From positions 2,666,001 to 2,730,000 of the forward strand of contig NZ_CP131935.1 of the NCBI RefSeq assembly GCF_030704305.1: a stretch of 64,000 nucleotides of DNA, read 5' to 3'. How positions within the stretch are numbered: the stretch's first letter is position 1; the number at the start of each line of letters is the position of its first letter. Positions 52,104 through 62,338 of the stretch are shown piece after piece. The notes below the pieces were generated by a model that was not told the DNA's origin, searched no databases, and saw only the letters and a list, made by a program, of their open reading frames with translations. The DNA comes from Massilia sp. R2A-15. Lineage in GTDB: Bacteria > Pseudomonadota > Gammaproteobacteria > Burkholderiales > Burkholderiaceae_D. The position numbers and the translations under genes were made by a program.

Positions 52104-52186
52104 CTGTCGCACCTGCGCAGGCAGGTGCCTATATTGAGCGTACGAGCACTCTTAGTCTAGCTCAGTATGGGCACCTGCCTGCGCAG
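52104..52186. repeat. Family B REP pair interrupted by IS110 copy 1
   Basis: Direct unit TGTCGCACCTGCGCAGGCAGG with TGCCTATATTGAGCG, and the inverted unit GCTCAGTATGGGCACCTGCC with TGCGCAG, cut by the insertion sequence. The missing end of the second unit, GTACGAC, is found on the far side at 53396-53402. Confidence 0.85.
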
Positions 52187-52198
52187 ATACTGTGGTCC

Positions 52199-53173
52199 CT
52201 AATTTTTTGCAAGCGCCATTTTTGGATCGAAGCGTGCGTCGCTCTTCAGTACCGCCATCATCCAATGGATCAGCTTGCGCATGACTGCGACCAACGCGAC
52301 TTTACCCCCTTTGCCAGCAGCTCGAAGTCGCGCGTAGAGCGCTTGGGCAGCTGGATTGAACCGAATCGCCGTCATCGCCGGGCAGTACAATATTTTGCGT
52401 AGTCGTCCATGTCCTAGCTTGCACAAGTGTGATTTGCCGTGCACCGAATCGCCGGACTGATTATGTTCCGGTGATAGTCCTACGAACGCCACCATCTGGC
52501 GGATATTATCAAAGCGGTCTACAGGAAGCCACGCAAGAAAATAACTGCTAACCCGTTCCCCCACCCCGGGAATACTGCGTAGGAGTTCCTGTTGATTCCG
52601 CAGTCCGGGGTGGCGGTCGATATGATCGCGGATTTTTTGCGTCAATAATGCTTCCTCTTCCTTCAAAGTCAGCAATATGCGATCGACCGATTCCAACGCT
52701 TGGCCCGCCGCTTCGTGACGCCGATTCTGCTCCTGCACATGCATGCCTTGAACCGCTTCCAGGCGCGCGATGAGGCGCTGCAACTCCCGCACTTCCGTCG
52801 CGGGAGGCTCCCAGAGGACCAACTTCTTGGATTGCTCGCCAAATCGGGCGATCAACTCGGCATCAGCTCGGTCAGTCTTTTGTCTGCGCATCTCAGATTG
52901 GCCAAAAGCTTTAATTTGCAAAGGATTGACGACGCTGACCAAATATCCAGCGTCAAACATGGCATGCGCCAGAGCTTCGTAATACTGGCTGGTCGCTTCC
53001 ATCACCACGCGACACTCATTCGCCGAAATACCCTGCTCGACGAGCCAATCGCAAAGCGCCTGAAAGCCAACGGGCGAATTTTCAAATGCCTTGTTACGAA
53101 TCTTGCCCGTTTTTCCCGACAGCCAAGCCAAGTCAAATTTACGCTTTGCGATATCGATTCCGACTACTTCCAT
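52199..53173 (-). CDS. IS110-family transposase (copy 1)
   Basis: 324 aa from the ATG at 53173, preceded by GGGGGAGG; a start five codons earlier would put the ribosome site inside the gene. N-terminal RuvC-like DEDD domain: VVGIDIAKRKFDLAW (first Asp), RVVMEATSQYYEALAHAM (Glu) and KTDRADAELIARF (Asp pair). C-terminal Tnp_2 domain with LLRSIPGVGERVSSYFLAWL, MVAFVGLSPEHNQSG and the Ser of DSVHGKSHLCKLGHGRL. It is the bridge-RNA-guided recombinase of this class. 26 codons around LQKIRDH form a coiled coil between domains. Confidence 0.95.
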   Translation of the reverse strand: MEVVGIDIAKRKFDLAWLSGKTGKIRNKAFENSPVGFQALCDWLVEQGISANECRVVMEATSQYYEALAHAMFDAGYLVSVVNPLQIKAFGQSEMRRQKTDRADAELIARFGEQSKKLVLWEPPATEVRELQRLIARLEAVQGMHVQEQNRRHEAAGQALESVDRILLTLKEEEALLTQKIRDHIDRHPGLRNQQELLRSIPGVGERVSSYFLAWLPVDRFDNIRQMVAFVGLSPEHNQSGDSVHGKSHLCKLGHGRLRKILYCPAMTAIRFNPAAQALYARLRAAGKGGKVALVAVMRKLIHWMMAVLKSDARFDPKMALAKN

Positions 53174-53202
53174 GGCAGCCTCCCCCATCCGCTGGTGATT
53201 TC

Positions 53203-53387
53203 GCTAGGACTTTATCTCGTGCATCCTTAAGAACACAGGCTCGCAGCCTCAGATACTGTTCGCACTCTGCGATAAAGGGAAGGACATGCGGCTTATCTGC
53301 GTCAACAGGCTCGAAGCCTCGGGTACGACTCAGCCTACATGCCCTTCGTTTTCCAAGCGTCCTCAGAAATCATAACGTGTTCCACAG
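53203..53387 (-). ncRNA. Predicted bridge RNA of IS110 copy 1
   Basis: Non-coding left end of the element, same sequence as described for copy 2. GTCGTACCC (target guide, 53329-53321), GACGCAG (53303-53297) and ACAGTATCT (donor guide, 53259-53251) are on the minus strand. Ends are approximate. Confidence 0.65.
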
Positions 53388-53410
53388 CGTATAAGGTACG
53401 ACATTTCTGC

Positions 53411-56714: not shown

Positions 56715-56790
56715 TGGCTCCCCGACCTGGACTCGAACCAGGGACCTGCGGATTAACAGTCCGTCGCTCTACCGACTGAGCTATCAGGGA
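56715..56790 (-). tRNA. tRNA-Asn (GTT)
   Basis: 76 nt with encoded CCA. Acceptor stem TCCCTGA pairs with TCGGGGA, D-arm AGCTCAGTCGGTAGAGC, anticodon loop CTGTTAA with GTT, T-arm CTGGTTCGAGTCCAG. Same sequence as the second copy at 57336-57411. Confidence 0.97.
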
Positions 56791-57335: not shown

Positions 57336-57411
57336 TGGCTCCCCGACCTGGACTCGAACCAGGGACCTGCGGATTAACAGTCCGTCGCTCTACCGACTGA
57401 GCTATCAGGGA
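57336..57411 (-). tRNA. tRNA-Asn (GTT), second copy
   Basis: 76 nt, the same sequence as 56715-56790, with CCA encoded and anticodon GTT. The two copies have unlike terminators, so they are separate transcription units or a pair with internal termination. Confidence 0.97.
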
Positions 57412-58858: not shown

Positions 58859-60946
<2,088 letters not shown>

Positions 60947-60965: not shown

Positions 60966-61040
60966 TAATGCCGTTAAGTTAAGGATTTAATCGGAACTGC
61001 AAGGAGGCGCGTCAGCCTAAAGACCGTCGTACCCTATACG

Positions 61041-61225
61041 CTGTGGAACACGTTATGATTTCTGAGGACGCTTGGAAAACGAAGGGCATGTAGGCTGAGT
61101 CGTACCCGAGGCTTCGAGCCTGTTGACGCAGATAAGCCGCATGTCCTTCCCTTTATCGCAGAGTGCGAACAGTATCTGAGGCTGCGAGCCTGTGTTCTTA
61201 AGGATGCACGAGATAAAGTCCTAGC
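61041..61225 (+). ncRNA. Predicted bridge RNA of IS110 copy 2
   Basis: Two loops share one design. Loop 1: GTCGTACCC (61099-61107), hairpin GAGGCTTCGAGCCTGT, then GACGCAG (61125-61131). Loop 2: ACAGTATCT (61169-61177), hairpin GAGGCTGCGAGCCTGT, then GTTCTTAAGG. Loop 1 matches the genomic target on the left (GTCGTAC, plus core) and its GCAG can pair with core CT + GC on the right. Loop 2 equals the element's right end plus core (ACAGTAT-CT), and its TAAG (61199-61202) can pair with CT + TA of the left end. This is the target-loop/donor-loop layout of IS110 (IS621) bridge RNAs. Limits are approximate. Confidence 0.72.
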
Positions 61226-61254
61226 GAAATCACCAGCGGATGGGGGAGGCTGCC

Positions 61255-62229
61255 ATGGAAGTAGTCGGAATCGATATCGCAAAGCGTAAATTTGACTTGG
61301 CTTGGCTGTCGGGAAAAACGGGCAAGATTCGTAACAAGGCATTTGAAAATTCGCCCGTTGGCTTTCAGGCGCTTTGCGATTGGCTCGTCGAGCAGGGTAT
61401 TTCGGCGAATGAGTGTCGCGTGGTGATGGAAGCGACCAGCCAGTATTACGAAGCTCTGGCGCATGCCATGTTTGACGCTGGATATTTGGTCAGCGTCGTC
61501 AATCCTTTGCAAATTAAAGCTTTTGGCCAATCTGAGATGCGCAGACAAAAGACTGACCGAGCTGATGCCGAGTTGATCGCCCGATTTGGCGAGCAATCCA
61601 AGAAGTTGGTCCTCTGGGAGCCTCCCGCGACGGAAGTGCGGGAGTTGCAGCGCCTCATCGCGCGCCTGGAAGCGGTTCAAGGCATGCATGTGCAGGAGCA
61701 GAATCGGCGTCACGAAGCGGCGGGCCAAGCGTTGGAATCGGTCGATCGCATATTGCTGACTTTGAAGGAAGAGGAAGCATTATTGACGCAAAAAATCCGC
61801 GATCATATCGACCGCCACCCCGGACTGCGGAATCAACAGGAACTCCTACGCAGTATTCCCGGGGTGGGGGAACGGGTTAGCAGTTATTTTCTTGCGTGGC
61901 TTCCTGTAGACCGCTTTGATAATATCCGCCAGATGGTGGCGTTCGTAGGACTATCACCGGAACATAATCAGTCCGGCGATTCGGTGCACGGCAAATCACA
62001 CTTGTGCAAGCTAGGACATGGACGACTACGCAAAATATTGTACTGCCCGGCGATGACGGCGATTCGGTTCAATCCAGCTGCCCAAGCGCTCTACGCGCGA
62101 CTTCGAGCTGCTGGCAAAGGGGGTAAAGTCGCGTTGGTCGCAGTCATGCGCAAGCTGATCCATTGGATGATGGCGGTACTGAAGAGCGACGCACGCTTCG
62201 ATCCAAAAATGGCGCTTGCAAAAAATTAG
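61255..62229 (+). CDS. IS110-family transposase (copy 2)
   Basis: 324 aa, the same protein as copy 1, from the ATG at 61255 preceded by GGGGGAGG. Complete DEDD and Tnp_2 domains with intact acidic and Ser residues, so it should be active. The long antisense frame over the non-coding end (102 aa, 61034-61342) occurs in both copies but overlies the bridge RNA and is not considered a gene. Confidence 0.95.
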   Translation: MEVVGIDIAKRKFDLAWLSGKTGKIRNKAFENSPVGFQALCDWLVEQGISANECRVVMEATSQYYEALAHAMFDAGYLVSVVNPLQIKAFGQSEMRRQKTDRADAELIARFGEQSKKLVLWEPPATEVRELQRLIARLEAVQGMHVQEQNRRHEAAGQALESVDRILLTLKEEEALLTQKIRDHIDRHPGLRNQQELLRSIPGVGERVSSYFLAWLPVDRFDNIRQMVAFVGLSPEHNQSGDSVHGKSHLCKLGHGRLRKILYCPAMTAIRFNPAAQALYARLRAAGKGGKVALVAVMRKLIHWMMAVLKSDARFDPKMALAKN

Positions 62230-62241
62230 GGACCACAGTAT

Positions 62242-62338
62242 CTGCGCAGGGGAAACGCATGTGTTTCCCCCATGCTGAGCATGCCGATGAGGTAAAGCAC
62301 GCTCAGTATGGGTACCTGCCTGCGCAGGTACGACGGCT
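62242..62338. repeat. Family B REP pair, right part of split copy
   Basis: CTGCGCAGG continues the REP cut by IS110. A variant arm GGGAAACGCATGTGTTTCCC follows, then CATGCTGAGCATG. The inverted unit GCACGCTCAGTATGGGTACC with CCTGCGCAGGTACGAC (62319-62334) is intact. That last unit carries an unoccupied copy of the IS110 target. Confidence 0.85.

Follow-up and report, generated by a model that had tools for sequence, protein, structure and literature searches.

An IS110-group element in a REP-like repeat family

The window (the whole stretch of DNA analysed, 64,000 nucleotides, forward-strand positions 2,666,001 to 2,730,000 of contig NZ_CP131935.1) comes from the single-contig, 5.03-Mb genome of Massilia sp. 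R2A-15, which carries the IS110-group element studied here. The copy at the centre of the analysis, copy A, is intact and lies between a uvrB-like gene (58859-60946) and a peptidase-like gene starting at about 63016, both named by eye. Two tRNA genes of equal score, 621 bases apart, lie elsewhere in the window on the minus strand (56718-56790 and 57339-57411). A genome search identified five copies of the element; the features of copy A, together with its counterpart copy B, are as follows.

61035-62241, plus strand: copy A of the IS110-group element, between its two cores, with borders common to the five genomic copies
52183-53393, minus strand: copy B, with left core CT, identical to copy A over the 1211 bases compared (61035-62245)
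61026-61034, plus strand: left target GTCGTAC and left core CC (GTCGTAC in all five copies, followed by CC only in copy A and by CT in the rest)
61255-62229, plus strand: recombinase gene, 324 amino acids plus stop (61255-62226 coding), with Pfam domains DEDD_Tnp_IS110 and Transposase_20
61438-61440, plus strand: codon of Ser62, aligned to Gly63 of IS621
62230-62243, plus strand: right end plus core CT, the left donor ACAGTAT lying at 62235-62241
62242-62250, plus strand: right core CT (62242-62243) and right target GCGCAGG

The long RNA-encoding left end (220 nt) and short right end (12 nt) of copy A correspond to the layout of the IS110 group, and the 12-nt right end is not that of the IS1111 group, where the RNA lies in the right end. 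The five copies fall into two near-identical sequence groups, the three copies other than A and B having four differences from these in common, all outside the guide region, and the recombinase frame is open in every one. The right junction reads ACAGTAT-CT throughout, followed by GCGCAGG in four copies and GCGGAGG in one. The first-pass annotation had tied its reading of the element to flanks of GTCGTAC and GCGCAGG at the other copies, an expectation that held on the left in all five and on the right in all but this one.

All five copies sit in one family of REP-like repeats, their flanks being one arm of a hairpin repeat. The repeat, GTCGTACCNGCG, occurs at 84 + 82 = 166 places in the genome, compared to 7 + 19 for a reversed control pattern, and is the defined target site suggested earlier. 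By our count over the 100 places listed, T occupies its N position in 68, with A in 19, C in 11 and G in 2. A second REP unit, inverted or neighbouring, was found beside each of copies A and B (62323-62334 on the minus strand and 52106-52117 on the plus strand respectively).

The recombinase has the DEDD RuvC-like domain and the C-terminal Tnp domain with catalytic serine that define the IS110 family, and also matches NCBIfam NF033542 ('IS110 family RNA-guided transposase'). Among solved relatives compared by sequence, IS621 (8wt6) was the best match (E 1.8e-66), followed by ISCro4, or 'IS622' (9t56; PMC13264000, PMC13199778; E 2.7e-63), an IS110 recombinase compared here at the protein level. 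The positions equivalent to IS621 D11, E60, D102, D105 and S241 (numbering from PMC11208158) are conserved in all 55 aligned proteins. The closest relative found, L036 of genome G456, has a 63% identical protein, and in the tree the two form one long branch with full support (100/100), apart from IS621. Over residues 145-241 the protein scores 28.4 bits with the TIGR-Tas endonuclease model NF052498, a weak similarity below the cut-off of 100.

The left-end RNA and its guides

The left end of copy A encodes a predicted RNA with a 5′ stem-loop, a target-binding loop and a donor-binding loop, in which the following parts could be delimited.

61059-61078, plus strand: 5′ stem-loop with a GACG loop, an 8-bp hairpin (9 bp with the same loop in L036)
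61082-61148, plus strand: target-binding stem-loop, with an outer helix of 12 pairs across 17 left ends, 10 of them changed on both sides, and a stem of its own
61099-61107, plus strand: left target guide GTCGTACCC, the same letters as in the copy A left flank, and matching the other four copies at 8 of 9 positions
61127-61131, plus strand: right target guide CGCAG, pairing 5/5 with CTGCG and 4/5 with CCGCG
61132-61133, plus strand: handshake guide AT of the target loop, pairing with donor positions 6-7
61151-61218, plus strand: donor-binding stem-loop, with a 4-pair inner helix in 17 left ends (3 pairs changed on both sides)
61169-61177, plus strand: left donor guide ACAGTATCT, identical to the right end plus core at 9/9 positions
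61194-61202, plus strand: right donor guide GT-(TC)-TTAAG, with 6/7 pairs to CTTATAC and a two-base skip

In an alignment of 17 left ends with hand-picked rows (copy A, L036 and 15 others; L046, L047 and L007 were left out), 94.8% of the cells of the two stem-loops were paired and 16 of the 23 pairs had changed on both sides. None of 500 shuffles reached any of the five measures used, and sliding the partners by 1-3 columns left only 27-45% paired. The two-loop fold proposed in the first-pass annotation is therefore backed by helices that covary. The L036 left end aligns throughout with that of copy A; the outer helix of the donor loop, CTTTATC/GATAAAG, was read by eye. Folding of single sequences was mildly unusual (z −2.51, with 4 of 200 shuffles as stable, and z −1.86), and Rfam yielded no match in the region, either at the gathering score or at E up to 1.

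The order in loop 1 is GTCGTACCC, the frame GAGGCTTCGAGCCTGT and CGCAG, and that in loop 2 is ACAGTATCT, GAGGCTGCGAGCCTGT and TAAG (61199-61202). Target and donor had been read directly from these loops at the outset, and each of the matches then reported was recovered: the start of loop 1 is identical to 61026-61034, its end GCAG is complementary to core CT plus GC, within a CGCAG that pairs with CTGCG, the start of loop 2 is identical to 62235-62243, and TAAG is complementary to core CT and the TA with which the left end begins. In all five copies the left flank agrees with the left target guide at every one of the seven non-core positions; in four, the guide C at core position 2 mismatches a CT core. 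The IS621 donor begins with the same letters as the donor guide of copy A. The right end of copy A recurs, the same or nearly so, in 51 of the 54 listed relatives, with core CT in those 51.

Not every guide letter finds a partner: one of the seven letters of the right donor guide is mismatched and only one of the two handshake letters of the donor loop pairs. Moreover, a scan for a sigma-70 promoter across the joined element ends gave at best an unconvincing 8/12 matches. Both would suit a relic in which RNA or enzyme is dead, but we regard this as improbable in view of five copies in two near-identical groups, A and B being identical, with open frames and catalytic residues kept. As judged from the intact frames and identical copies, the element is probably functional.

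We then compared guides with flanks across relatives. In 27 elements, the left target guide agreed with the element's own flank at a mean of 6.44/7 non-core letters (17 perfectly, 23 at six or more positions), compared to a mean of 3.93 and a maximum of 4.89 in 10,000 shuffled guide-flank pairings, none of which reached the mean for own flanks; the registers were partly found via the match itself, which favours high scores. A left-end motif survey of 54 elements places the flank core without using the guide match. The 27 elements were taken from 48, leaving out six near-copies (L014, L025, L068, L070, L071, L073), L048, which gave no register, and 14 with other left-end types (L012, L016, L018, L019, L020, L037-L042, L052, L057, L079). 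Among those left out, L019 matches at 9/9 and L038 and L052 at 8/9 positions. L082 and L110, examined afterwards by eye, match at 9/9. The guides of copy A and L036 (GTCGTAC versus GTCATCC) differ at positions 4 and 6, where their repeats differ too.

Two further patterns emerged among the relatives. The same mismatch, guide ATCCGCC versus flank ATCCGAC, occurs in L011, L067, L068, L070, L071 and L073, from at least five genomes of one genus group, and their preferred target may differ from the guide at position 6. In genome G1049, four copies of one element (L061-L064) have the left flank CGCTTTTCCGCC in common but four different right flanks, and a fifth copy, L058, has another left flank.

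An RNA region upstream of the transposase gene could also act as a regulator of that gene without any guiding, as proposed for the small RNAs of ISPpu9 (PMC11208160). Regulation creates no need for loop letters that track the flanks and right end of each individual element, and we consider this very improbable. The IS110 recombinase with its catalytic residues, the covarying two-loop RNA and the guide matches in five copies instead uphold the bridge-RNA reading of the first-pass annotation. On this sequence evidence, we conclude with high confidence that this is an IS110-group insertion sequence, most likely moved by bridge-RNA-guided recombination.

Such a system is of a known kind, since bridge RNAs have been predicted in 85.7% of IS110s (PMC11208160) and are already reported for most elements of the group. 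We assign it to IS621-type bridge recombination, with the unequal core described below as its new feature. In the published descriptions of IS621 (PMC11208160, PMC11208158), the recombinase domains and catalytic residues, a left-end RNA with 5′ stem-loop, target loop, donor loop and two-sided guides, a two-base skip where the donor guide pairs, REP targets and donor core CT all have their counterparts here. Copy A differs from IS621 in its tree branch, in its target guide (GTCGTACCC), in having Cys at the M265 position and in lacking a clear promoter at the joined ends, besides the core and Gly63 differences considered below. ISEc21, from the description of seekRNAs (PMC11187229), is similar in being an IS110 element whose target is chosen by a non-coding RNA lying upstream, but its target is linear and inside IS3-family elements, whereas that of copy A is REP-like. 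Targeting of REP repeats by IS elements has long been known (PMC1525189, PMC11208160), and ISPpu9, ISPpu10 and ISPa11 are likewise described as inserting into them (PMC1525189).

Unequal target and donor cores

The CC at the left flank of copy A had already been noticed in the first-pass annotation and is confirmed, with CT in the other four copies; what had escaped it is that target and donor cores are unequal. Joined with left core CC, the flanks of copy A match five intact genomic repeats at 41-43 of 44 positions. In a search that left the two core positions open and tolerated one mismatch, intact repeats with the right arm of copy A carry CC in 7/7 cases, three having one mismatch elsewhere. 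The joined flanks and these intact repeats show that copy A combined a CC target with a CT donor into a product with CC on the left and CT on the right. A core register shifted to GTCGTACC-CT-ATACG was considered and rejected, since a base-for-base alignment of copy A with the four CT copies puts their C or T in one and the same column. Neither is CC in copy A an artefact of fetching CC repeats, given that the core-free pattern still returned CC in 7/7.

L036 has the same arrangement, its junctions reading GTCATCC-CC on the left and ACGGTAT-CT on the right, and in both it and copy A target letters persist at the left junction and donor letters at the right one through core position 9. Among 28 intact repeats of the L036 type in G456, core position 2 is C in 27, A in one and T in none; as these repeats offer no T there, CC is the normal target of L036. 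The left CC of copy A might have arisen only after insertion, by mutation or by gene conversion from other repeats, for which there are plenty, and it is the single CC copy in its own genome. The CC in all seven intact repeats with its right arm and the left CC/right CT of L036 in another genome nevertheless render this quite unlikely.

IS621 and its relatives are described as having CT cores at both ends, with an almost invariant T because the main chain of G63 reads it (PMC11208158). This rule of CT in target and donor, with T at position 9, does not hold in copy A and L036, both in CC-core targets. In the left-core survey of 54 elements, left core CT was seen in 46/46 of the remaining elements, near-copies counted, whose left end could be placed (L056 was counted via another hit, L017, L039, L048, L079 and L110 had no usable motif and the L041 hit was spurious); the other four copies of our element have CT at both ends. 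C at target position 9 is what sets the lineage of copy A and L036 apart. At the position of IS621 Gly63, 52 of the 55 aligned proteins have Gly, one (L059) has Ala and two, those of copy A and L036, have Ser. The sole Ala, in the motif EPTASY of L059, goes with CT flank and donor cores. Since the Ser proteins form one tree branch, the link between Ser and the CC core counts as a single event.

The guides of both lineage members are likewise split, the left target guide spelling CC and the right target guide AG, which pairs with CT, so that one target core cannot suit the two of them. Disagreement between the core letters of guide and flank is seen in other groups too, with TT versus CT in L038 and L052. 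These data can be read in two ways. In one, copy A is an ordinary CT-core element in which the left target guide leaves its second core letter unpaired and CC targets are tolerated at a low rate. CT at four of the five copies fits this, and the left donor guide of IS621 has its ninth letter unpaired with the core (PMC11208158), so that a guide core letter can be silent. Moreover, IS621 off-target sites had a CT core in 102 of 117 cases and lacked it in 15 (PMC11208160), and other target cores therefore do occur at a low rate. Nonetheless, the left target guide reads CC in both lineage members, the 28 repeats of the L036 type have no T at core position 2, and the protein has Ser at the residue that reads the core T. 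We thus see the ordinary-element explanation as a realistic possibility, though a somewhat doubtful one.

Alternatively, equal cores may no longer be required in the Ser-marked lineage: the left target guide would read the target core and the right target guide the incoming donor core, so that targets with C at position 9 would be natural substrates. We tentatively prefer this second explanation, to which we assign a likelihood approaching, but not quite reaching, an even chance.

Searches for more members of the Ser/CC lineage, in overlapping samples of 245, 399, 369, 249, 392, 60 and 279 genomes, returned only our own genome and G456 among the matches examined. Scans of a genome-contig collection gave no relatives, viral contigs gave one weak 33% match (unused) and none to a DNA pattern, and plasmid and phage records gave only relatives of ~42-43% identity at the thresholds used, with none from a distant DNA search of plasmids. 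Nor did we recognize any description of such a lineage among the titles and abstracts listed from the open literature on IS110 cores, bridge RNA, seekRNA and bridge recombinases. In the PMC11208160 survey, cores were found as sequences repeated near the element end and the target-motif analysis kept CT-core guides, criteria by which unequal-core elements could be missed or misread. The tests described there either held the CT core constant or changed it jointly in target, donor and guides, always with T second.

A proposed mechanism and its implications

By analogy with IS621, the element would leave as a circle, and its left end would be transcribed into a two-loop RNA to which the recombinase binds. 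The first loop would base-pair to the host repeat GTCGTAC-CY-GCG and the second to the joined ends of the element, ACAGTAT-CT-TATAC. Strands would be exchanged by the enzyme beside the two-letter core. In copy A and L036, the left target guide may read the target's own core, and the right target guide may be matched to the donor core brought in by strand exchange. With the guide split in this manner, the left part for the target core and the right part for the incoming donor core, the two cores would not need to match in this lineage. In the published IS621 mechanism (PMC11208158), cleavage of the top strands falls 3′ of position 9, after which the right target guide base-pairs to the donor core that comes in. 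The split guide letters of copy A and L036 appear to agree with this order of events.

The element and its relative provide a natural test of the bridge-RNA model, in that two genomes whose REP families differ both allow guides, repeats and junctions to be read directly, and the junctions record which side inherits target and which donor letters. A natural enzyme that joins targets with CC to donors with CT would relax the CT-core limit of the published tests. If true, the unequal-core lineage would widen the range of sites reachable by bridge recombinases and reveal which guide letters serve which step.
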